This document shows, in pieces, positions 5,490 through 21,123 of a stretch of 21,123 nucleotides of DNA. The number at the start of each line of letters is the position of its first letter. Positions within the stretch are counted from its first letter, which is position 1. The notes below the pieces were generated by a model that worked only from the letters and a program-made list of their open reading frames with translations, was not told the origin of the DNA and did not search any database. Origin of the DNA: a virus. Made by a program: the position numbers and the translations under genes. The DNA lies in IMG/VR virus record IMGVR_UViG_3300032241_000346, positions 1 through 21,123 of that record; one strand, 5' to 3'.

Positions 5490-6806
5490 ATGGGTTGCTG
5501 TAAAGGTTTTATCGGGCAAGTTTTAAACCCAGTTGCGAAAAACCCTCTCGCAGCTATCGCGGCAGTTACAGCCGCAGTTGTAGCGCCTGAGCTGTTGCCA
5601 GAAATGGTTAGCGGCGGCGCTGAAGTCCTTGGCGCCTCTACAGTTCTTCCCGGAACGGTATTGGCAAACGGTGCAACAGTCTTGGCTGATGGTTCTATCA
5701 TCGCCGCTGATGGCTCGATGATTGCTGGCGCAGGTTCTGCCGCAGTTAGTGGCGGAGCTGCTGCCGCTGGAGCCGCTGGAGCTGCGGGCGCTGGGAGCGC
5801 GTTACCCGCTACTAACGCGCTAACTGAAGCAGGTATACCATCGGTTAATACCTCAACTTTTATGAACTCGGTACTGCCAGGAGACTTTGTCCCAAGTAGC
5901 TATGCGCCGCTAGGTTCTGGACTGACTGGAGCAGGTGCTGCAGTTCCTGGAATCTCGACGCTAGGTACTACAGAGGGAGCATTGATCCCTGGAGCCGCCG
6001 CTTCAACTCCTTTACTCGGAACGCCGCTAGATGTTGCTGGTAATCCTCTAGCGTATACACCCGCGTTAGGAGACGCTGGCGCTGCAGCTGCTGCAGCTTC
6101 GGCTACACAAGATCTAAGCAACGCTTTTAATCCTAATCCAGCTCCCTCAATCGGCCCATCGGGCACTACAACTATTCCAAACATATCATCTGGAGCACCA
6201 GCTAATTCAGTGATTTCAGGAGGCACCACTGGAGGCTCTAGCAGCGGTCCTTGGAATGCCCCCATGTCGCCAGGAGTTGCTACCGTTGGTAGGGCGGCTT
6301 TTCCTACGATGGCTAACCCGCTCGCCAGCGTAGCCTCTAAAAGCATAGTTCCTACGTACACTCCTAGTGACTCTATGCTCAATAACATTATGGGGCATCA
6401 GCAGCAAGGTGAGTTCTCATCGGCGACAGGGTATAAAAAAGGCGGCGAAGTCAAAGCTGATTTGAGCAAGTTTGAGCCTGAGTTTGTAGATATAATCCGC
6501 AAGCGTACCCCTGACAAGTCACATCCGAACTATAATGGAACCCCATTGTTCCGCACGGGCGGGCTAGGTAAGCACGTTCAAGGGCCAGGCACTGGACAGA
6601 GCGATGACATTCCAGCTATGCTAGCGGACGGTGAGTACGTGTTTGATGCTGATACGGTATCGGCGTTGGGCGATGGGTCAAACAAAGCGGGAGCTGAAGC
6701 GCTGGATAAGATGCGTGAGCGTATTCGTAAACATAAACGAAGTGCTCCAATTGATAAAATCCCGCCTAAAGCAAAAGACCCCTTGCACTATTTAAAGGGT
6801 AAATGA
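5490..6806 (+). CDS. Ala/Gly-rich virion protein with conserved C-terminal motif
   Basis: This 438-residue protein has two parts. Residues 1-310 are low-complexity Ala, Gly, Ser, Pro and Val, with hydrophobic runs near the N-terminus (AAIAAVTAAVVAPELL) and a Cys-Cys at residues 3-4. Residues 315-438 are ordinary and charged. Around residues 365-384 is the motif GPGTGQSDDIPAMLADGEY, followed by a basic helix DKMRERIRKHKR; I recognise this motif from virion-associated proteins of many podovirus-like phages, where its function is not known to me. AGGGGAGG six bases upstream is a strong ribosome site. The gene lies first in the group of likely internal or ejection proteins. A membrane-active role for the Ala/Gly part is only a guess. 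Confidence 0.7.
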   Translation: MGCCKGFIGQVLNPVAKNPLAAIAAVTAAVVAPELLPEMVSGGAEVLGASTVLPGTVLANGATVLADGSIIAADGSMIAGAGSAAVSGGAAAAGAAGAAGAGSALPATNALTEAGIPSVNTSTFMNSVLPGDFVPSSYAPLGSGLTGAGAAVPGISTLGTTEGALIPGAAASTPLLGTPLDVAGNPLAYTPALGDAGAAAAAASATQDLSNAFNPNPAPSIGPSGTTTIPNISSGAPANSVISGGTTGGSSSGPWNAPMSPGVATVGRAAFPTMANPLASVASKSIVPTYTPSDSMLNNIMGHQQQGEFSSATGYKKGGEVKADLSKFEPEFVDIIRKRTPDKSHPNYNGTPLFRTGGLGKHVQGPGTGQSDDIPAMLADGEYVFDADTVSALGDGSNKAGAEALDKMRERIRKHKRSAPIDKIPPKAKDPLHYLKGK

Positions 6807-9391
6807 TCATGGCTACCTCTAATAATTTTACTCCAACTCCGGCCCAGCTAGCGACAGCCAGCACTAATGATAACGGCTCGTTAACGCAAGGCGCTCCGCT
6901 GCCTAGCATTACAACGACGCAGCAACAAGCGACAACGCTGCCGCAGTTTTATCAGGATTACCTGAACAATATCACAACACAAGGGCAAACCGCGCTGCAA
7001 GGTATGCAGTACGCTGGCCCCACCGCTAACCAAACAGCGGCCTTTAACGGAGTGCAAGCTGCTGGTAACGCGTATCAACCAGGCCTAGCGCAAGCTCAGC
7101 AGACCGCGCAAGGGGCGTTAGGTTTGAGCGCTGCAGCCGCAACTCAACCGTACTTGAATCAAGGTTTGGCAACGTCAGGCTTGTCACAAGCCTCGCCTTT
7201 CTTGCAAGCCGCCGGTTTGTCGGGCGGGTTAAACGCAGCTAGCCCTTATTTAGCGGCAACTTCAGCGCAAAATAACGCTCCTGGCGCTGCTATTCCGTAT
7301 ATGAGCAACGCTCTAGCGCAAAATACGGCTACTTCTGCGGCCAACCCCTATTTGGGCGCATCGGCAGGTCTAAACGCGACAAACACTGCCGCAGCCGGAG
7401 GCGTGAATGCTGGTTTAGCACAGAATACTGGAGCGGCAGCGGCCAGCCCGTACTTGTCTAACGCAAGCAATATCAATGCAGTTAACGCAGCTTCAGGTGA
7501 TATTAACGCTGGCCTTGCTCAAAACACAGCGGCAGCGGCGGCTAACCCTTACTTATCACAGTCTTCATCGTTAAGCGGGGCAAACGCTGCACAGCAATAC
7601 CTCAATCAAGGTATGGCGCAAAATACAGGCGCTGCAGCAGCTAGCGGGGCTTTAGGTCAAGCGCAGTCTTTAAACGCGCTCGGCGCAGCAGCACCAACTT
7701 TAAGCTCAGCTTTAGCGCAAAATACAGGCGCACAAGCGGCAAACCCTTATTTGAACGCGGCAGCTACGCAAGGCGGCTTGACCGCAGCTAACCCTTACTT
7801 GCAAGCCTCCGCGCTTAGCAACACAGGAATGGCCGCTTTCAGCCCGTATGCTCAAGCTGCGACAACGACTTCCGGCGTTCAACAGGCTAACCCTTATTTG
7901 CAGCAAGCCACGCAAGCGTCTACAGCTAATCTCAACCAGTATTTGAGTCCTTATACTCAAGATGTGGTTAATTCTATTCAGGCGTTAAATCAGCAAAATA
8001 TCGCGCAAAACTTATCGCCTCAAATCACAGCGGGAGCGGTAGGCTCAGGCCAGTTTGGATCGCAGCGCGGCGCTCAAGCTCTAGCGCAAGGTATTTCTAG
8101 TGCAGACACAGCAGCGTTGGCTCAGGAAGCTCAAGCTGAACAAGCGGGCTATAACACTGCGCTGTCAGCAGCTCAGCAACAGCAAGCAAATCAACTGGCC
8201 GCAGGTCAAACTGTTGGAAACTTGACTCAGCAGCAAAACTCGTTACTTGCCAATTTAGGTACGAGCGCGGCAGGTATCCAAAGTCAAGAAGCTCAAAACT
8301 TGGCAACGCTGGGTCAAACGGCAGGCACGCTACAACAGCAGCAAGCTAACAACTTGGCTTCTATCGGCTCTACCGCAGGTAACTTACAGCAACAACAAGC
8401 TCAATTGGCTTCTACAGTAGGCACCAATTTAGGGCAGCTGAGCAACGCTCAACAAGCAAACTTGGCTAGTATCGGAGCTACGCAAGGTAATCTGCAAAAT
8501 CAACAAGCTCAAAATGCGTTGAATGCTGCAGCAACGACGGGGCAACTGACAAACCAGCAAGCTCAAAACTTAGCAACAGTTGGCGCTACTGCAGGTAACT
8601 TACAAAACCAGCAAGCGCAAAACGCTATCACAGCGGGGACAAACCTAGGACAACTGAGCAACACGCAACAGGCCAACTTAGCAGCTATGGGTGCAACCGC
8701 TGGTAATTTACAAAATCAGCAAGCTCAAACAGCGATCAACGCTGGTTTAGGATTAGGTCAGCTTACTAATCAGCAAGCTAGCAACTTAGCCACCCTCGGG
8801 TCTACCGCGGGTAATTTGCAGAACCAACAATCTCAAAATTCATTAGCGCAAGCTACTTTGGCTGGCAATTTGCAGAATCAACAAGCGCAAAATACGCTGG
8901 CGCAAGGTAATTTAGCAGGCAATCTGGCTCAATCTCAAGCGGGCTTACTCGGCACGTTGGGGCAAACTGCTGGTACGTTGCAAAACCAACAAAACGCAAA
9001 TTACCTTACAGCCGGTCAAACGCTGGGCGGATTGACAAACACTCAGCAAGCCAATCAACTGGCTGGTGCTCAGTTACAATCTTCTATGGCTAATCAAGCG
9101 CAGACTAACGCGCTGGCGGCTGTTAATGCTAATTCAACTATCGGCGCTCAGCAACAAACCATTAATCAAGCCGCAAACAACTATCCTATGACTGCGCTGC
9201 AGCAGTATGCTACGTTGTTGCAAGGTCAAACGATTCCCACTGCGACATCGCAAACTTACACTGGCCCTATTCCTGGCGCTTATCAAACTTCTCCATTGTC
9301 TACAGCTGCCGGCCTTGCCGCCACCACTGCGGGCGTTGCTAGCACTGTCGCTAATGCCGCTGCTGCAGCTAAAACTGCCGGTCTTCTTTAA
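6803..9391 (+). CDS. Giant repeat-built virion protein (Ala/Gln/Asn-rich)
   Basis: This protein of 860-862 residues is composed largely of repeats. Residues 168-366 are six copies of a 33-34-residue unit centred on AQNTGAAAANPYL. Residues 376-445 form a non-repeated core with LSPYTQDVVNSI and GQFGSQRGAQ, a motif I recognise from phage tail or ejection proteins. Residues 463-750 are sixteen copies of an 18-residue unit centred on GNLQNQQAQN. The C-terminus is Ala-rich. Charged residues are almost absent. Two starts are possible: ATG at 6803, overlapping the previous stop as ATGA, or ATG at 6809, which is better spaced (nine bases) from GGG at 6797-6799. It is probably a long helical internal, tail-core or DNA-injection protein; the role is inferred from position and composition. 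Confidence 0.75.
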   Translation: MIMATSNNFTPTPAQLATASTNDNGSLTQGAPLPSITTTQQQATTLPQFYQDYLNNITTQGQTALQGMQYAGPTANQTAAFNGVQAAGNAYQPGLAQAQQTAQGALGLSAAAATQPYLNQGLATSGLSQASPFLQAAGLSGGLNAASPYLAATSAQNNAPGAAIPYMSNALAQNTATSAANPYLGASAGLNATNTAAAGGVNAGLAQNTGAAAASPYLSNASNINAVNAASGDINAGLAQNTAAAAANPYLSQSSSLSGANAAQQYLNQGMAQNTGAAAASGALGQAQSLNALGAAAPTLSSALAQNTGAQAANPYLNAAATQGGLTAANPYLQASALSNTGMAAFSPYAQAATTTSGVQQANPYLQQATQASTANLNQYLSPYTQDVVNSIQALNQQNIAQNLSPQITAGAVGSGQFGSQRGAQALAQGISSADTAALAQEAQAEQAGYNTALSAAQQQQANQLAAGQTVGNLTQQQNSLLANLGTSAAGIQSQEAQNLATLGQTAGTLQQQQANNLASIGSTAGNLQQQQAQLASTVGTNLGQLSNAQQANLASIGATQGNLQNQQAQNALNAAATTGQLTNQQAQNLATVGATAGNLQNQQAQNAITAGTNLGQLSNTQQANLAAMGATAGNLQNQQAQTAINAGLGLGQLTNQQASNLATLGSTAGNLQNQQSQNSLAQATLAGNLQNQQAQNTLAQGNLAGNLAQSQAGLLGTLGQTAGTLQNQQNANYLTAGQTLGGLTNTQQANQLAGAQLQSSMANQAQTNALAAVNANSTIGAQQQTINQAANNYPMTALQQYATLLQGQTIPTATSQTYTGPIPGAYQTSPLSTAAGLAATTAGVASTVANAAAAAKTAGLL
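7304..7900 (+). repeat. Six tandem in-frame 33-residue repeats
   Basis: Within the 862-codon gene, six units of 34, 33, 33, 33, 33 and 33 residues follow without gaps. The start of each unit fits (N/S)xxLAQNTGAxAANPYL. Several units contain a second, weaker NPYL about 16 residues after the first, so each unit may be an older doublet. DNA similarity is modest and codons differ, so selection appears to act on the protein. Confidence 0.85.
8189..9052 (+). repeat. Sixteen tandem in-frame 18-residue (54-base) repeats
   Basis: Sixteen consecutive units of exactly 18 residues occupy residues 463-750 with no insertion or deletion between them. The consensus is NLATxGxTAGNLQNQQAQ; Leu or a similar residue at position 2, Gly at 10, Leu at 12 and Gln at 15 are the best kept. 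An imperfect seventeenth unit follows. Even and odd units differ in places (LGQLSN against AGNLQNQ), hinting at a 36-residue super-unit. Codon use varies between copies, so the array is old or has been kept by selection on protein. Confidence 0.92.
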
Positions 9392-12823: not shown

Positions 12824-13165
12824 TCACCTATCTTGGTTAACGTAACTAGAGCCGGCATCACCTTCCTTGTCAAGCTGAGGAATCGCTTGGCCCATATGTT
12901 CCTCAACTAACAGTAGGTAGCGACGTAAGTCGCGGATGTCGTCGATTATACCCTCAATGCGGACATCACAGCTGATAGCTTCAAAGATGTCATAGTCATG
13001 CATTTTGACTTGATTCTCAAGGCGATCCCACTTACGAGCAAGCATCATGAACGCGCCAACGCCGCCGCGCTTTTTCCAAGAGTCACCGTAAGATTGTTCA
13101 GCTTTGAGCAGCCCCTTAATATCGGCGTGGGTGATGCCGTTCAAACCCATTTCAAGACTTGACAT
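12824..13165 (-). CDS. DUF1599-like (possible nucleotide modification-associated) protein
   Basis: The core around SYGDSWKKRGGVGAFMMLARKWDRLE is the signature that I know from the DUF1599 family, often in phages and linked in comparative work to nucleotide modification or nucleotide pools; the reaction is not known to me. A helical stretch IIDDIRDLRRYLLLVEEHM follows. I chose the ATG at 13165, which overlaps the upstream HD gene by 14 bases and has AGAAAG ahead of it. An ATG at 13219 would add 18 residues (MNTQLDHFFWNNY...) but has no ribosome site and lies inside the HD gene. Placement beside a nucleotidase fits a nucleotide-pool role; that is inference. Confidence 0.75.
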   Translation of the reverse strand: MSSLEMGLNGITHADIKGLLKAEQSYGDSWKKRGGVGAFMMLARKWDRLENQVKMHDYDIFEAISCDVRIEGIIDDIRDLRRYLLLVEEHMGQAIPQLDKEGDAGSSYVNQDR

Positions 13166-13664
13166 TTTTACGATCTTTCTGTAGTTGTTCCAAAAGAAGT
13201 GATCCAACTGGGTGTTCATTTAAATTTTTAAGATAGTCAACGCCGCGATCAAAGACCTCGGCCATAGTGGAGTTGCCAACCTCAAGCTCATCTAGGCAAC
13301 GGTAAAGCAAGTCAAGCATATCAGCCCACTTAAGCACCAAGACTTCCTCAGCGCTGAGCGCGGGCACTTTGAGCATATTTTCCTGCATCATATCGTGCTC
13401 AAGCTCATCGCAAGCTGACTTTAACCTAGCCAACCGCCACTTCGCCGTAGCCGGCACATCACCTGTCCATTGTTCAGCGGTATCGTGAAGTAGCGTTGCG
13501 AAAACCAGTTGCCGTGAGGGTTTGGGTTCCAGTACGAAAACGATAGCGAGGACATTAGCTGTATGTTCGCCGACGGTGTCGCTTGTGAGCATACGGCGCG
13601 TGTGCCAGCGTTTGACTGCATTTCCATTACGAATAGTTTTGATTGAAACGTGAGGTACTAGCAT
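13152..13664 (-). CDS. HD-domain 5'-deoxynucleotidase (YfbR-like)
   Basis: This 170-residue protein is probably a metal-dependent phosphohydrolase acting on deoxynucleoside 5'-monophosphates. The motifs follow YfbR: R19-W20 near the start (VKRWHT), His34 in VGEHTA, the His60-Asp61 pair in LLHDTAE with Glu64, Asp69 in TGDVPA, and a late Asp115 in KWADMLD. A phage copy could remove unwanted dNMPs or salvage host nucleotides. ATG 13664 gives the whole motif set; later starts would lose RW. No good ribosome site is seen, and only about 22 bases separate this ATG from the predicted start of transcription. It is the first gene after promoter-like site A and overlaps the DUF1599-like gene. Confidence 0.85.
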   Translation of the reverse strand: MLVPHVSIKTIRNGNAVKRWHTRRMLTSDTVGEHTANVLAIVFVLEPKPSRQLVFATLLHDTAEQWTGDVPATAKWRLARLKSACDELEHDMMQENMLKVPALSAEEVLVLKWADMLDLLYRCLDELEVGNSTMAEVFDRGVDYLKNLNEHPVGSLLLEQLQKDRKNVKS

Positions 13665-13745: not shown

Positions 13746-14204
13746 TTAAGATTCAGCAACCGGCTTTAGGGGCGCTCTACGCACCTTTGCAACTCCGCGT
13801 GGGTACTTGGTAGGTTTAGCCTTGCCGTTGCCCTTAGCCAACCCGCGATGGTAAGCCGCCGCTTCTAACGACTCGAGAGTTCGCTTACGTTCATCCCAGA
13901 GTTCAAGAATTAGACCGGCCAGCGGGCGCATACTGAACTTGGGGTTCAAGCGCTCAAAGTCAGCTGTAGTTTCCCAACCGTAAGCTTCAATGTAATGAAG
14001 CCAGCTGAGGCCCAACTTACGCAGCAAGCCTTTGACGCCAGCGTCCGAAGGGCGAACGTAGAACATTGGCAACGTGACGTTAGCATCGCGAGCGAGATCA
14101 ACCCAGTGATCATCATCAGCGTGTTTTTTGATGTAGTGCTCACGCTGGAAGTCTACTTGTTCCTTGGCTTTCGCCATCAATTCAGAGTCAAATGGTTTTG
14201 GCAT
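13746..14204 (-). CDS. Hypothetical protein with basic C-terminal tail
   Basis: This 152-residue protein is not recognised. Residues 1-110 look like a soluble helical domain (HWVDLARDANVTLPMF; GLLRKLGLSWLHYIEAYGW). The last 30 residues are strongly basic (KGNGKAKPTKYPRGVAKVRR), as in proteins that touch nucleic acid. The ATG at 14204 overlaps the resolvase stop by 17 bases, so the two are translated together; a role as a partner in DNA repair or packaging is possible. The gene ends just before promoter-like site A. Confidence 0.7.
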   Translation of the reverse strand: MPKPFDSELMAKAKEQVDFQREHYIKKHADDDHWVDLARDANVTLPMFYVRPSDAGVKGLLRKLGLSWLHYIEAYGWETTADFERLNPKFSMRPLAGLILELWDERKRTLESLEAAAYHRGLAKGNGKAKPTKYPRGVAKVRRAPLKPVAES

Positions 14205-14685
14205 TATAAGTTTCCTTTAAGTAAGTGGCAATCAACAACGCTTCAGCGCGGTCAATGTGTTTTTTCAAGTGTAAGTCTACCAGAGGATAGAGCTTAACAG
14301 CCAGCGCTCGGGCTTCCTCTTTGTCTTTAGAGAGCTTAAAATACTTTTTCCAAGCCATAGGGGTAACATAAGTCAAAGGCAGGTTTGTGAGGCTTAAAAC
14401 TGCGCGACAAACCCCGAACGAGTCACCCAAACTGAAAGTAGAAGCAGCGGCCTGTCCAGGCATAGAGTTAACACGCTCGAGAGCGGCGACAACCCGCACG
14501 CGGTTGATAATGCCTTCGCGTAGTAAACGCCCCATACCGGCGGGGTCAATCTCATACTTTACCGCGCCGTCACCTTTCTTAATTGTCGGGATATCATAGA
14601 TGACGTACTCGTCACCGTGCAACACCGCGATAGCGCCAGTCAGCCCAGGATCGACGCCGACAAAAGTAGTTAGAATGTCGTCCAC
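14188..14685 (-). CDS. RuvC-like Holliday junction resolvase
   Basis: This 165-residue protein has an RNase H-like fold pattern: VGVDPGLTGAIAVL at 9-22 with Asp12; ALERVNSMPGQAAASTFSLG at 68-87 with Glu70; and KHIDRAEALLIATYL at 142-156 with Asp145. These are the acidic metal-binding residues of RuvC-type nucleases, which cut four-way and branched DNA. In phages they clear branches before packaging. The start is GTG at 14685, overlapping the nuclease gene by 16 bases; no ATG upstream is in frame, and starting later would lose Asp12. It sits in the recombination block with nuclease, ssDNA-binding protein and Sak4-like ATPase. Confidence 0.92.
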   Translation of the reverse strand: MDDILTTFVGVDPGLTGAIAVLHGDEYVIYDIPTIKKGDGAVKYEIDPAGMGRLLREGIINRVRVVAALERVNSMPGQAAASTFSLGDSFGVCRAVLSLTNLPLTYVTPMAWKKYFKLSKDKEEARALAVKLYPLVDLHLKKHIDRAEALLIATYLKETYNAKTI

Positions 14686-15506
14686 AAGTCACATCCTTTC
14701 AGTTGCTTACCGTAGTCAAGCTGCTCATTGAACTTCTCGCAAAGCCAGCCGCCGTCCTGAATAGGGCGAGCGTGTTGGCAGGAGCGGCAGTTTTGTAAGG
14801 GCTTTTGATGACCCCAGCAAACCGCGTGCGCGTCACAGAACTTGCACCGCCAGTCGGTTTCCTTTTCTGCTATGCGAATAGGAGGCATAGTGGCTTCGGT
14901 CAACTTCCGCAGCTTTTCCTCAATCATTTCAATTGTAGCTTCGTCTTTATAGACGCGCTCAATATGAAACTTTTCGTCATCTTTGCAAACAGCGATGTAA
15001 AGAGCACGTTCCAAACCCGATAGCCACATACCGGCTTGCATCTGCCAGTAGTGCAGAGGCTTGGCTTCTTTGACGCCGCGAGTCTGTAACTCTTTGAACC
15101 CTTTGACGTTGGACGATTTGATTTCAATGACGTGCGGCGTCTTTTCAGCTGAGGGCACGCCCCGAACTGCACCGTCAGTCTTGCAAACAAAGTGCCCGTC
15201 AGCAGCGGTGTAAGTCCACTGCTTACCAGTATCAGGGTCAACTTCCCAGACTTCTAGGCCAGCGTCTTTTAAGTCTTGAACGACGCGGTCCTCTTGGATA
15301 TAGCCGGTCTTAAATAGGCGCAGCATACGCCCTTCGGGGCGGTCGTTATGGAACCCGCGCCAATCATACCAGATAGAGCGAACACACTCTTCACCGATAC
15401 TAGACGCACCTATCCGCGTCAACATCAGATCTTTGCTGTCGTTTTTCTCATAGGCTTGGTATATTAGCTGTTCCAGAGTAGAATTTTCTTTCGGCAATGC
15501 GACCAT
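14670..15506 (-). CDS. Cas4-like PD-(D/E)XK exonuclease with cysteine clusters
   Basis: This 278-residue protein has a PD-(D/E)XK nuclease core: Glu72 in GYIQEDRV, Asp111 in CKTDGAV, Glu128-x-Lys130 in HVIEIKSS, and Gln155 in HYWQMQAGM. One early cysteine (Cys41 in GEECVRSIWY) and three later ones (Cys221, Cys224, Cys230 in WRCKFCDAHAVC) are placed as in Cas4 and AddB, where they hold a [4Fe-4S] cluster. A further set (Cys240, Cys243, Cys256, Cys272) could bind zinc. It probably resects DNA ends for annealing by the Sak4-like protein. ATG 15506 has AGAGGA ahead of it and gives the expected N-terminal helix; it overlaps the zinc-ribbon gene by 59 bases. Confidence 0.9.
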   Translation of the reverse strand: MVALPKENSTLEQLIYQAYEKNDSKDLMLTRIGASSIGEECVRSIWYDWRGFHNDRPEGRMLRLFKTGYIQEDRVVQDLKDAGLEVWEVDPDTGKQWTYTAADGHFVCKTDGAVRGVPSAEKTPHVIEIKSSNVKGFKELQTRGVKEAKPLHYWQMQAGMWLSGLERALYIAVCKDDEKFHIERVYKDEATIEMIEEKLRKLTEATMPPIRIAEKETDWRCKFCDAHAVCWGHQKPLQNCRSCQHARPIQDGGWLCEKFNEQLDYGKQLKGCDLWTTF

Positions 15507-16995: not shown

Positions 16996-17302
16996 TTAAT
17001 TTGCTGTAGGACAATTTATTTTTATCCCACCTTAGCAACAAACACGTGCCCCGCAACTCGGCCGCGACCGTGACGCAAATTGAGCACAATGCAGGGTCAC
17101 CCGACATGACGATGTAGTCATCAGGGTAGTAGTCTTGTAAGACGTTTCTAGCGTGAGCAATAGCAGCCGAGCCGTCATAGTCACGTCCAATAGAGGAAAA
17201 GACATGACGCACGTTGCCGTAAGCGTCCGCTGCAGAATAGTCTCTACGGCGGTCATAGCTCACAAGCCATACTGTTGGTATTCTATTACTTGATGTTTCC
17301 AT
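16982..17302 (-). CDS. Hypothetical protein downstream of DNA polymerase
   Basis: This 106-residue protein is not recognised. It has beta and helical segments (PTVWLVSYDRRRDYSAADA; AAIAHARNVLQDYYPDDYIV), then SGDPALCSICVTVAAELRG, and ends in a basic stretch LLRWDKNKLSYSKLRLNF. SGDPALC and LRWDK look like conserved spots. I chose ATG 17302, which overlaps the polymerase stop by 17 bases. A GTG-type start at 17416 would give 144 residues but lies deep in the polymerase gene. Coupling to the polymerase suggests a replication role, though nothing fixes it. Confidence 0.65.
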   Translation of the reverse strand: METSSNRIPTVWLVSYDRRRDYSAADAYGNVRHVFSSIGRDYDGSAAIAHARNVLQDYYPDDYIVMSGDPALCSICVTVAAELRGTCLLLRWDKNKLSYSKLRLNF

Positions 17303-19082
17303 ACACTTCTCCAAATTTAACCTCAGCCTTGACCGGTAAGTCCGGCCACCAGCGTGGAGGGGTACACATAATGCGCTCGATATAGTCACGCGCTTCGGCA
17401 GCCTCAGCCTTGTCAACCACGGCCACTAACTCGTCATGTACTGTGAGAGCGACAGGGTATTTTTGATGCACAATCAGTAGCTGTTCCATCACAATGTGAC
17501 GGGCTAACGCTTGGACAATGTTCTCGGTAATTAACCCGCCATAGATACCTGAGCGCCCATCACCGCGTGAAGCGTAGCTATAACGACGGTCAGTGGAGCT
17601 GTAGCTGAGCTCAGTATAAAGCAACGGCAAACCAGCGGGTAGCGTGATTTTGTTCTTACCAGTAATGACCGGTATCTCGGTGCTTAGCGGGCGCTCGATG
17701 CCTTCAACGATTAAGGGTAGTGCTTTATCGCAGACGTCCCAGAACTTGACAATCTTGTCGTTCTTCTTGCGGTACGCCGTGATAGCCTTCTCACACATTT
17801 CCATGGACAAGGGCTTACCTTGCGTTCTAAGAAACTCAAAGAACGTTCTAGCGGACATACCATACCCCGCGCCTAGAACCGTCACCTTGCCAAGCCAGCG
17901 CTCATCTTCGTCAGCTTTAGTAATAGTGCGGCCATAGATAAACGAGGCCATATCGCAGTAAGGATCAAGCCCCTTGCGAAAAACCTCCATCAAATCCTCT
18001 TGGCCGGCGACGCAAGCTAGAGCGCGAGCTTCAATCTGTGAGCTATCGCCCACGACAAGGGCTTTACCAGCAGGGGCAACGATGCCTTTTCGCAACTTAG
18101 ACCCGCGAGTCAGGTTTTGCAAGTTGATACCCCCGCCGCCGCTCATACGGCCTGTGTGCGCGCCGTAGTACAGTAGCGGAACTGGCAGCAGGCCAGTCTT
18201 GCCGATAGCGCTCAAGCGGGCAGCGCGAGTCTGTTCAATGGTGGACTTCAGCTTGAGCCGAGCGCCAACAACGGCTTGCACCCGAACATCAGGATATTCC
18301 ATCAAATCGGTAATACCCTTGTCTTGCTTAGAAAACGCAAACGTAGGCTTACCGGTGCGCTCGCTCATTTTCATCGGCGGTTCAACGCCTAAGTTCTTAA
18401 GAGCCTGAGCGAACTTCTGGTTTGACATGATAACATCGAGCGTTATGCCCGCGTCCTCAAGCATACTTTCGCGAGCTTTGTCCAGCTCAACGATGTAATC
18501 ATCAAGCATCTTGTAATCCACCGCGAGTAGCGGCATTGTGACCGCTTTGATCGTCCATTGCAGCAGTAAGAACTCAAACTTCGGGAACGTCTTAATCAAA
18601 CGCTCATAAATGCGGTACGTCAGGTCAACGTCACGTACGCAGTACTCGCCTAAGATATCGCGCTCATAATCTTGCAAAGCCTCAAGCCGCTTACCCTTGG
18701 ACACCGATAGCCCGTCAAGTTTCTCGCCGAAACCTAGACTAGCAGCGACTGAGTTAAGGCTATAAGACTTCAAGCGAAGTTGCGCCCGCGCTAGGCCCAC
18801 AGTATCAGTTGCCTCCTTAGGAAACCATTGATAATGCTGAGCGGCGATAGCCAAGTCAAACTGCGCGTTATGACACACAGCACGGACGTTAGTACCATAG
18901 TGCTCAAACGCTTTAGCAATATCATCACCCCAAGCTAAATGCGTAGGCTCGTCGTTAAACTTAAAAGCGCAGCATATGGCTTGGAACCTAGCGTCCCGAA
19001 TGTACTCGGTGGACGTCATCTTGGAAAGCGAGAATGACGCCGGATCGTAGTACGTCTCGAAGTCAAGCACCAACGTGTTCAT
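17286..19082 (-). CDS. polA: Family A DNA polymerase with 3'-5' exonuclease
   Basis: This 598-residue replicative polymerase has both domains. Exonuclease: D7-x-E9 in LDFET, Asp76 in HNAQFD, and Y147-x3-D151 in YCVRD. Polymerase: motif A GDSSQIEARAL at 345-355 (Asp346, Glu351); motif B R395-x3-K399-x7-Y407-G; and motif C VHDEL at 548-552. No 5'-3' flap nuclease domain is present, as usual in phages. The residue matching Phe762 of E. coli Pol I is Leu403 (KVTVLGAGYG). The ATG at 19082 overlaps the thymidylate synthase-like gene by 20 bases. It should copy the phage genome, which may contain modified thymine. Confidence 0.96.
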   Translation of the reverse strand: MNTLVLDFETYYDPASFSLSKMTSTEYIRDARFQAICCAFKFNDEPTHLAWGDDIAKAFEHYGTNVRAVCHNAQFDLAIAAQHYQWFPKEATDTVGLARAQLRLKSYSLNSVAASLGFGEKLDGLSVSKGKRLEALQDYERDILGEYCVRDVDLTYRIYERLIKTFPKFEFLLLQWTIKAVTMPLLAVDYKMLDDYIVELDKARESMLEDAGITLDVIMSNQKFAQALKNLGVEPPMKMSERTGKPTFAFSKQDKGITDLMEYPDVRVQAVVGARLKLKSTIEQTRAARLSAIGKTGLLPVPLLYYGAHTGRMSGGGGINLQNLTRGSKLRKGIVAPAGKALVVGDSSQIEARALACVAGQEDLMEVFRKGLDPYCDMASFIYGRTITKADEDERWLGKVTVLGAGYGMSARTFFEFLRTQGKPLSMEMCEKAITAYRKKNDKIVKFWDVCDKALPLIVEGIERPLSTEIPVITGKNKITLPAGLPLLYTELSYSSTDRRYSYASRGDGRSGIYGGLITENIVQALARHIVMEQLLIVHQKYPVALTVHDELVAVVDKAEAAEARDYIERIMCTPPRWWPDLPVKAEVKFGEVYGNIK

Positions 19083-20061
19083 CGTTTTCCTTAGGAATCA
19101 ACCACGCTTTGCACGCCGCACGCCAATCAGTTGCGCGGATACTATCAGCATAGATCAGGCCATTGCGGGCGCGTTTATGTTGCCACCAAATCATCGCTAT
19201 CGGTTGAGCCACGTCTTGGAAGAACGGCGTACGGTAAATACGCTCATCTTGCGGGTCTAGCATGAAAGCTTCAAGGTCTTTTTGCCAGTCACCGTGATCA
19301 CAATCCTGCATCATCGGATAGGGCTTGACGGCCAGCTCAGCATAGTCAGACTCATAATAATCAAGCGGTACGTAGCTTGTATCTTTGACGCGGTCCCAGA
19401 CTTCTAGCGACGTGTAAACGTGCAGCGAGTCAGACATCTGCGTGTAAGGACCGACCTTGTAGCCGGTTCTAGCGGCGACATACTCTTGCAACATACTGAA
19501 GTGGACAACGTTCGCGCCCAACTTACCGTAAAGCAAGTCATTAGAACGGCAGCAAACGGTCATGTACAGCTCACCGTCACGCACTTTCCAATAGATATGT
19601 GTGTTGCAAGGGTGATCTTTTTTGTTGCCGCCTAAGTCTAGGATAGGATCCCACATCGTTGTGACAACGCGACGGTCCTCAGGGTTTTTCTTAAGCAGCG
19701 AAATGGCCAACTCGAGCTGATCGAAGCCAGCATTGTTCCTTAAACGATAGCCGTACGCGCCCCAAAACGTATCACCATCATCACTATACTGCTTCATCTG
19801 TGAGTTGAAATAGTCAAGGAACTCGACGTCGCGGTAGCCGCCGATAATCCAAAGACCTTCCATACAATGAAAGAATGGATTACAGTTACGGGCTTCATTG
19901 AACAGGACGCGCTCGGTAGGGCGGGCATAGGTCGTTGCCACAGGCTCGCTGAATTCAATAACAGGCCCATTGCGTGAGTTGCGGGGCTTACCAATAGACT
20001 TAATGCTATTGATTTCCAAGGGGAACGCTTGGTTCACGTTTCTGACGTTGAAAGCTATCAT
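19063..20061 (-). CDS. Thymidylate synthase-fold enzyme, possible dUMP hydroxymethylase
   Basis: This 332-residue enzyme has the ThyA fold: RPTERV at 47-52, AYGYRLR at 102-108, DRRVVTTMWDP at 129-139, and the catalytic Cys152 in HPCNTH. RSNDLLYGKLGANVVHF at 172-188 is the nucleotide-binding segment, with Asn184 the likely equivalent of the uracil-selecting Asn of ThyA; SDSLHVY at 210-216 follows. The usual PPCH is PCN here, and the protein is longer than ThyA (264 in E. coli). Such variants in phages make either dTMP or 5-hydroxymethyl-dUMP. The adjacent hypermodification-type gene favours hydroxymethylation, but sequence alone does not settle it. GAGGA ahead of ATG 20061 overlaps the upstream stop. 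Confidence 0.85.
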   Translation of the reverse strand: MIAFNVRNVNQAFPLEINSIKSIGKPRNSRNGPVIEFSEPVATTYARPTERVLFNEARNCNPFFHCMEGLWIIGGYRDVEFLDYFNSQMKQYSDDGDTFWGAYGYRLRNNAGFDQLELAISLLKKNPEDRRVVTTMWDPILDLGGNKKDHPCNTHIYWKVRDGELYMTVCCRSNDLLYGKLGANVVHFSMLQEYVAARTGYKVGPYTQMSDSLHVYTSLEVWDRVKDTSYVPLDYYESDYAELAVKPYPMMQDCDHGDWQKDLEAFMLDPQDERIYRTPFFQDVAQPIAMIWWQHKRARNGLIYADSIRATDWRAACKAWLIPKENDEHVGA

Positions 20062-20069
20062 GTTAGTCC

Positions 20070-20960
20070 TCAGTATGCAGTTTCAGGTATATAGTTAGAT
20101 CTAGGGCGGCCACCATTGGTAGCCCGTATATACTTATCAAACTCACACATACAATTCTGCCAGTCATGCAGCGTGAGAGAGTTAAGATTGATATCAGCCA
20201 CCGGCTTACACGTTTCCAGCGTTTCCATCAATTCGTCGTTGAACCGTTCTTGCGGAATGCTTTGTTCCAAGGAACGGCCATAAATTCTGTTCAAGCCGCG
20301 AGTTGAGCCAGGACCGATAGGGGCAAAGGTTTTCAGGTCTTTAGCCTCGCTCAACAGATGGCAGTAAGTCATATCAGCAACGACTTGACCCGACATGAAA
20401 GTGCCCCAACCGTATATACCCTCAAACATCTTTAGCACCGCCTGAACGCTACGCTCCTCAGGGGCAGTCGTGTTTAAATACTTAGGTATTTCCACATTAT
20501 GGAACAACGGCTCAAGCATGCTCTTAGCGACAAATACGCCTTTACCCATGCCTGGGGGGATATTGCGACCAGTGATAACGTAAGCGCCAGTCCAAGCCTT
20601 CTTTCCCTTTTCAGCGCGACGGTCAATCACCCCGCCGAAAGCGGTAGGGCTAAATGACGCCACAGGCCATTCACCGCGCTCAATCAACTCGATGATAGTG
20701 GGAGGCCAGTTGATATAGCGAGCGCAAGCTAGCATAATCCAAAGCCAGTCGTTATCATTGTACGGCTCGATGATGTTCTCAATTATCCAACGCGATACAC
20801 GATCGTCAGCGCGGTGCACGTTGCAGAAGCGGTACTTCTGTAGTATTTCATCCTCAGTCCAAGGCTCAGTTTGAGCTGGATCTGACTGCTTTTTCATTCT
20901 AATGCTTTCCCGCTCACTGACAAAGTAAGCGAGCTTGCGCGTCATTGTATCAAATGGCAT
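20070..20960 (-). CDS. Helical thymine-hypermodification protein (HMUDK-helical/aGPT-PPlase-like)
   Basis: This 296-residue helical protein carries EPWTEDEILQKYRFCNVHRA at about 32-51, then DDRVSRWI; FAPIGPGSTRGLNRIYGR in the last third; and LHDWQNCMCEFDKYIR near the end. I recognise these patterns from the predicted DNA glycosylase-fold families annotated as 5-hmdU DNA kinase helical domain or alpha-glutamyl/putrescinyl thymine pyrophosphorylase, described by Iyer and colleagues in phages with hypermodified thymine. Which subfamily it belongs to I cannot tell. It would act on hydroxymethyluracil in DNA or nucleotide. I chose ATG 20960, which overlaps the upstream stop by 11 bases; a longer frame to 21020 would run into that gene. 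Confidence 0.72.
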   Translation of the reverse strand: MPFDTMTRKLAYFVSERESIRMKKQSDPAQTEPWTEDEILQKYRFCNVHRADDRVSRWIIENIIEPYNDNDWLWIMLACARYINWPPTIIELIERGEWPVASFSPTAFGGVIDRRAEKGKKAWTGAYVITGRNIPPGMGKGVFVAKSMLEPLFHNVEIPKYLNTTAPEERSVQAVLKMFEGIYGWGTFMSGQVVADMTYCHLLSEAKDLKTFAPIGPGSTRGLNRIYGRSLEQSIPQERFNDELMETLETCKPVADINLNSLTLHDWQNCMCEFDKYIRATNGGRPRSNYIPETAY

Positions 20961-21123
20961 AGCCAAGCTCCCGCAAGACGATAGGCACCGCCTCATCTGA
21001 GCTAACCCAGTGTGGCTCAAGTCCTGCCGCGTGCAGTTTCTTAGCCGATGAAATATTCTTCTTGTCGTTTGTCAAGATGTTGTCAGTTTTTTCAATAGGG
21101 GGCTTGCCCTCAATAGCGCGACG
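20950..21123 (-). CDS. C-terminal end of an unidentified gene (cut by window edge)
   Basis: The last 57 codons of a gene entering from the right are visible, ending GLEPHWVSSDEAVPIVLREL then GYAI and a TGA. The stretch before is Lys/Asn-rich and helical. No catalytic motif lies in this piece, so I do not name it. Its stop overlaps the next start by 11 bases, so it is coupled to the hypermodification-type gene. A DNA kinase or nucleotide kinase would be a natural neighbour, but nothing here shows it. Confidence 0.7.
   Translation of the reverse strand, partial: RRAIEGKPPIEKTDNILTNDKKNISSAKKLHAAGLEPHWVSSDEAVPIVLRELGYAI

Follow-up and report, generated by a model that had tools for sequence, protein, structure and literature searches.

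What base does the phage behind this DNA use in place of thymine, and which genes would make it? The window analysed here is a whole viral record, a single contig of 21,123 bases. An earlier note, made from the letters of the window alone, had read its right end as a thymine hypermodification locus. Thymine hypermodification is known in phages M6, ViI and PhiW-14, and the replacement of thymine by bulkier bases is a known anti-restriction strategy. The present analysis supports the interpretation of the earlier note. It suggests that the right end of the window holds the downstream half of an operon for phage thymine hypermodification, and that the product of this operon is probably an unsculpted aminoacyl thymine, a reading to which we give a probability of about 80%.

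At the right end, in the order of transcription on the minus strand, a gene truncated at the edge of the record is followed by genes for a 296-residue protein, a 332-residue ThyA-fold enzyme and a family A polymerase. The features that bear on the question are:

20950 to 21123, minus strand: 3' end of 5-hmdU DNA kinase B (57 codons and the stop), cut by the record end
20070 to 20960, minus strand: HMUDK_hel or 'aGPT-PPlase1' helical protein, stand-alone, 296 residues from the ATG (PF18723)
19063 to 20061, minus strand: predicted ThyA-fold dUMP 5-hydroxymethylase, 332 residues (PF00303)
17286 to 19082, minus strand: family A DNA polymerase (PF00476, E 1e-24; PF01612, E 4.7e-7)
13152 to 13664, minus strand: HD-domain 5'-deoxynucleotidase, YfbR-like (PF12917, E 6e-16)
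12824 to 13219, minus strand: 131-residue conserved protein beside HD and thyA genes (recurrence by its own HMM; no Pfam match)

The right-end genes are arranged as in an operon, overlapping or 8 bases apart. The thyA and polA genes share 20 bases (19063-19082), the start of hel and the end of the kinase gene upstream share 11 (20950-20960), and the hel stop is separated from the thyA start by 8 bases (20062-20069), one fewer than the nine that the earlier note had counted. These overlaps make translational coupling plausible, both to the DNA polymerase and to the upstream gene that the note had proposed without being able to see it. That gene is now identified as the 3' end of a P-loop kinase gene, its 57 codons being 98% identical to the complete gene in the sister contig L002.

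The neighbours past the record end, including kinase A and the amino acid:DNA transferase (ADDT), were read in relatives of the window, the nearest of which, L002, has ThyA and hel proteins 98% identical to those of the window. The order in the sister contigs is ADDT, kinase A, kinase B, hel, ThyA, PolA, with genes overlapping or near-contiguous. A P-loop DNA kinase had been proposed as something to look for right of position 21123, and two 5-hmdU kinases, preceded by the ADDT, lie there in the sister contigs. The order from ADDT to ThyA is the same in every contig of the clade that reaches that far.

The first step of the pathway would fall to the ThyA-fold enzyme, whose PCN motif and GANVVHF loop had been read correctly. 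It matches PF00303 at E 7.5e-20 and phrog_5131 at E 1e-103, and among the annotated proteins of public phages it is closest to those of M6-like Pseudomonas phages, at 44% identity over 97%. In an alignment with E. coli ThyA, SPO1 gp29 and T4 gp42 it retains R126, R127, C146, R166, S167, D169, N177, H207 and Y209 (E. coli numbering), and so has the catalytic Cys, the Arg cluster, Asp169 and, for uracil, Asn177 that are looked for in the fold of a dUMP 5-hydroxymethylase. Residue H147 is replaced by N, giving the PCN motif, which is also found in the SPO1 dUMP hydroxymethylase, M6, PaMx11 and others; PCN with N177 is a signature of dUMP hydroxymethylases. Because the motif is shared with the SPO1 enzyme, and because of the identity to M6, the product would be hmdUMP rather than dTMP. 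The databases do call this ORF 'thymidylate synthase', and one could read it as an ordinary one whose neighbours have nothing to do with base modification. This is hardly credible for a protein that scores far under the NCBIfam thymidylate synthase cut-offs, carries the PCN motif, has a long C-terminal extension in place of the thymidylate synthase C-terminus, and is encoded among three families dedicated to 5-hmdU chemistry. Both ThyA and hel have dN/dS well below 1 in the pairs with estimable dS.

The helical protein was placed by HMM search in the HMUDK_hel family, as its patterns had suggested to the earlier reader, and in no unrelated family. PF18723 matches at E 5.2e-41 (bit score 141, cut-off 25; positions 3-275 of 281) and phrog_2396 at E 7.6e-56, and the protein is 34-39% identical to homologues from M6-like phages, Sonora and Pam3, several of which are annotated aGPT-PPlase1. 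Its AF2 model is all-helical, with a pLDDT of 91.9. A Foldseek search with the model gave weak but consistent matches, all at E above 0.3. Most of them are HhH DNA glycosylases, and the PaMx11 transferase is there too, which is suggestive of a fold shared with these. No solved-structure relative of hel was found by sequence, a comparison of hel with the ADDT profile found no relation, and no relative was found in cellular genome contigs at the sensitivity used.

We infer that hel recognises 5-hmU or makes it accessible to the enzyme of the following step, whichever that is. Kinases adjoin hel in the window clade; 34 loci with at least 3 kb of upstream sequence have hel without a recognised kinase within reach. 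Acinetobacter SH-Ab has hel without a recognised kinase in reach, yet has an ADDT, and in L157 hel lies beside a TET-associated glycosyltransferase (TAGT), again with no recognised kinase nearby. The reverse is seen in Rhodoferax phage P26218, which has ADDT, kinase and ThyA without hel (whole 36-kb record searched). The kinase-less hel of L157 (6953-9374), L158 and L166 is found near an HD nucleotidase, the 131-residue protein, the TAGT (PF20691, tested in L157) and ThyA, and this gene content suggests that 5-hmdU may be glycosylated there and that hel may have a role independent of the kinase. In another locus, L033:8026-9024, on a 75-kb contig, a radical-SAM/SPASM enzyme is encoded between HMUDK_hel and ThyA, and neither a kinase nor an ADDT was recognised nearby.

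The cut gene at the record end translates in the window to RRAIEGKPPIEKTDNIL...GYAI, 98% identical to the L002 gene. Kinase B is complete in L002:7602-8162, where it matches PF18748 (HMUDK_HMUD1) at E 6.7e-9. The kinases of the sister contigs score over the PF18748 cut-off and the P-loop is intact in both A and B, the window itself holding the C-terminal 57 residues of B. No HMUD2 kinase was found above cut-off. Both kinases are present in all 17 contigs that extend far enough (16 from the clade and the more distant L108), kinase A of L016 being partial. The two are about 30% identical to each other and form separate clades in a tree, with support of 100/98 and 100/100. The L108 member lies outside each of these clades, so the duplication predates the split between L108 and the clade. 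The P-loop reads GKTW in all copies of B and GKTT in A. In pairs with estimable dS, dN/dS is 0.04-0.17 for kinase A and 0.04-0.12 for kinase B, values that are only indicative, as dS is saturated in many pairs. A reading of kinase B as a dead duplicate was considered and rejected, since every member keeps the gene and its P-loop is intact.

A single kinase is found in each of M6, PaMx11, Sonora, Pam3, Rhizobium TM26 and P26218. L114 and L159 also have two, and their copies look independent, though the branches are long. The conservation of kinase pairs implies a distinct task for each copy. The M6 kinase favours TG dinucleotides (PMC6449724), and one option is that A and B might divide their targets by sequence context; another option is serial phosphorylation by A and B. 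The 5-hmdU kinases of M6 (gp54, L058), PaMx11 (gp49, L092) and P26218 (gp15, L178) are labelled 'terminase small subunit' in RefSeq, and PHROG 800 uses the same label, which is probably a widespread annotation error.

The ADDT gene lies outside the window and matches PF18724 at E 1.8e-7 in L002 and 1.8e-11 in L010. Compared with solved structures, its profile finds two at 1e-99 or better, among them 8z2m, 'Glycinyltransferase' (6e-100), whose entry title is PaMx11 5-phosphomethyl-2'-deoxyuridine glycinyltransferase. The modification might instead end early, at 5-hmdU or phosphorylated 5-hmdU, with the transferase homologue inactive or otherwise employed; sequence can suggest an amino-acid chemistry rather than show it, and many relatives have hel and ThyA without an ADDT. 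We consider such an early stop quite unlikely for the window clade, whose ADDT retains the invariant residues common to the solved transferases, lies inside the operon and shows purifying selection (dN/dS 0.07-0.13 in pairs with estimable dS).

Within the model of an aminoacyl thymine, a sub-question is which amino acid is loaded. If it were glycine, as with the PaMx11 transferase, the product would be N-alpha-glycyl-thymidine, and a single-sequence search with the clade ADDT does give that PaMx11 enzyme as the top solved homologue (E 1e-21). A phylogeny of 39 transferases points the other way: a branch with support 100/99 splits the clade ADDT from those of M6, PaMx11, Pam3, Rhizobium and Sonora, and the clade ADDT groups with PhiW-14 gp109 and Acinetobacter SH-Ab, some of the branches being long. 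PhiW-14 has putrescinylthymine in its DNA, a base that ornithine labels, and a PhiW-14 mutant accumulates a pyrophosphoryl intermediate (PMC5977210). With the ADDT on the PhiW-14 side of the tree, glycine is possible without being the default, and we regard it as somewhat doubtful. A more specific proposal, which we regard as unlikely, joins the transferase to the kinase pair: A would add the first phosphate and B, with its GKTW, the second, and a PhiW-14-type transferase would load an amino acid other than glycine onto the pyrophosphoryl intermediate, giving an undescribed thymine.

Whether the base is then sculpted further depends on finishing enzymes. The earlier note, having seen no such genes in the window, had pointed to neighbours past position 21123 as the place to look; kinases and ADDT did appear there, whereas PLP, radical SAM and FAD enzymes did not in the near-whole relatives. 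PF04055 (radical SAM), PF00291 (PALP) and PF01266 (DAO) had no match in the window or in G000-G007, the relatives being near-complete though not proved complete, and scored in the M6, Pam3 and PaMx11 controls. BLAST with the M6 cassette, which together with partial Pfam scans also covered other PLP fold types and families, found no finishing enzyme in the window or in G001-G007, two 51-kb contigs included, and ten further G002 proteins, nearly all without an assigned function, had no relevant Pfam match. The radical-SAM, PLP or FAD enzyme that marks sculpting of the M6 or ViI type is thus absent from G000-G007 as searched. Because no radical-SAM, PALP-type PLP or DAO-type FAD enzyme was found, the final base is taken to be an unsculpted aminoacyl thymine, though a finishing enzyme could be hidden among the small ORFs of the relatives or be supplied by the host.

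One candidate for a further step is an extra gene between the phrog_624 gene and the ADDT in G004, G005 and G006. Its AlphaFold model (pLDDT 82.6) has as its best Foldseek match a Rossmann SAM methyltransferase fold, at E 6e-7. The predicted methyltransferase-fold gene, which belongs to no Pfam family, is at L010:6400-7167 and also in G005, G006, L009, L011, L013, L022 and L023, with a weaker match in L108. It lies directly before the ADDT, and it is possible that it encodes a new finishing step on the aminoacyl base. The chance that such a gene finishes the end group here seems slim, since neither L002, which is closest to the window, nor the identically organised L005 has it, and G002 and G003 lack it as well. 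The unsculpted aminoacyl thymine is still the preferred end product.

Comparison with known systems shows what is shared. The DNA of M6 carries 5-(2-aminoethyl)dU (PMC6449724). The relative order of ADDT, HMUDK_HMUD1 kinase, HMUDK_hel, ThyA, HD protein and PolA is shared with M6 (L058), except that in the window the HD gene comes after PolA. M6 differs in having a single kinase along with a PLP enzyme, a radical-SAM enzyme and Nmad5; kinases number two in the window clade, and none of the other three was found in it. PaMx11 (gp46-gp51, L092) likewise has an ADDT (gp46, 8z2m/8z2n), a kinase (gp49), hel (gp50) and ThyA (gp51), but only the one kinase, an extra FAD enzyme and acetyltransferase, and an ADDT on the opposite side of the family tree. 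Delftia phage PhiW-14 has HMUDK_hel and an ADDT, gp109, related to that of the clade. It differs in being a 157-kb T4-superfamily myovirus with dispersed genes, and it has no HMUDK_HMUD1 profile match, though kinase A matches one place in it by tblastn. In P26218 the ADDT, kinase and ThyA genes are adjacent and the ADDT joins the branch of the clade, on a long branch of its own; it differs in its one kinase and in having no HMUDK_hel anywhere in its 36-kb record. The system is therefore of an already known type overall, and what is new against M6 and PaMx11 is the two conserved, old kinases and the failure to find a finishing enzyme.

Two window genes further along may be accessory. The HD 5'-deoxynucleotidase is 31% identical to M6 gp59 (E 2e-17), its gene adjoins thyA in many related loci, and it probably acts on nucleotide pools; PhiW-14 infection removes dTTP (PMC5977210). 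The own HMM of the 131-residue protein matches in 50 of the sequences searched, some of them duplicate views of one contig, and its gene often comes directly after HD or thyA, for example in L036, Pam3 and L157.

As for the phage itself, the terminase of cassette-bearing relatives is nearest to that of MW202545, a metagenome-derived genome (56%), then to Caulobacter phages (42%), and a structural protein of the window has the same neighbours (66% and 40%). HMUDK_hel is absent from MW202545, and protein searches found no cultured member of the clade. Other genes deserve mention. The window has an 862-residue ORF in its structural region (6803-9391) with many degenerate repeats (NLQNQQAQ and NPYL units), where G002 has an ORF of 369 residues. 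A RuvC-like Holliday junction resolvase (14188-14685; phrog_1770, E 6.5e-29) and the gene beside it (14670-15506), with weak matches to YqaJ, Cas4 and PD-(D/E)XK nucleases, are both conserved in the clade. L010:2268-3467 encodes a protein of 399 residues that on inspection by eye resembles a glycosyltransferase (phrog_1574, E 3e-6; no Pfam match); the gene lies upstream in some clade members and has relatives in L121 and L124.

Both the assignment of the genes to families and their order are firm, and comparison with M6 and PaMx11 makes a pathway from dUMP through hmdUMP, DNA and phosphorylated hmdU to aminoacyl-thymine well supported; for the window phage itself we infer each reaction, the amino acid, the role of hel and the protection from restriction. 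ThyA would convert dUMP to 5-hydroxymethyl-dUMP, which would pass into the triphosphate pool, and the adjacent PolA would polymerise hmdUTP instead of thymine. After replication, hel would bind and perhaps flip 5-hmU in the DNA, presenting it to the kinases. The two P-loop 5-hmdU DNA kinases would phosphorylate the hydroxymethyl group, and in the ADDT reaction an amino acid would displace the phosphate through its amino nitrogen. The end base would probably be an unsculpted aminoacyl thymine, whose bulk and charge may block host restriction.

The virus thus probably replaces part of its thymine by a bulkier base that bears an amino acid. The activated intermediate in such systems is a monophosphate in one branch and a reported pyrophosphate in PhiW-14. 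With two diverged kinases, a transferase from the PhiW-14 side and no finishing enzyme found, this locus is a minimal natural test case: the five-protein operon bears on the choice between a monophosphate and a pyrophosphate intermediate and on how transferases pair with amino acids, and it may make a new DNA base. Its gene order is a clear marker for this group of phages.
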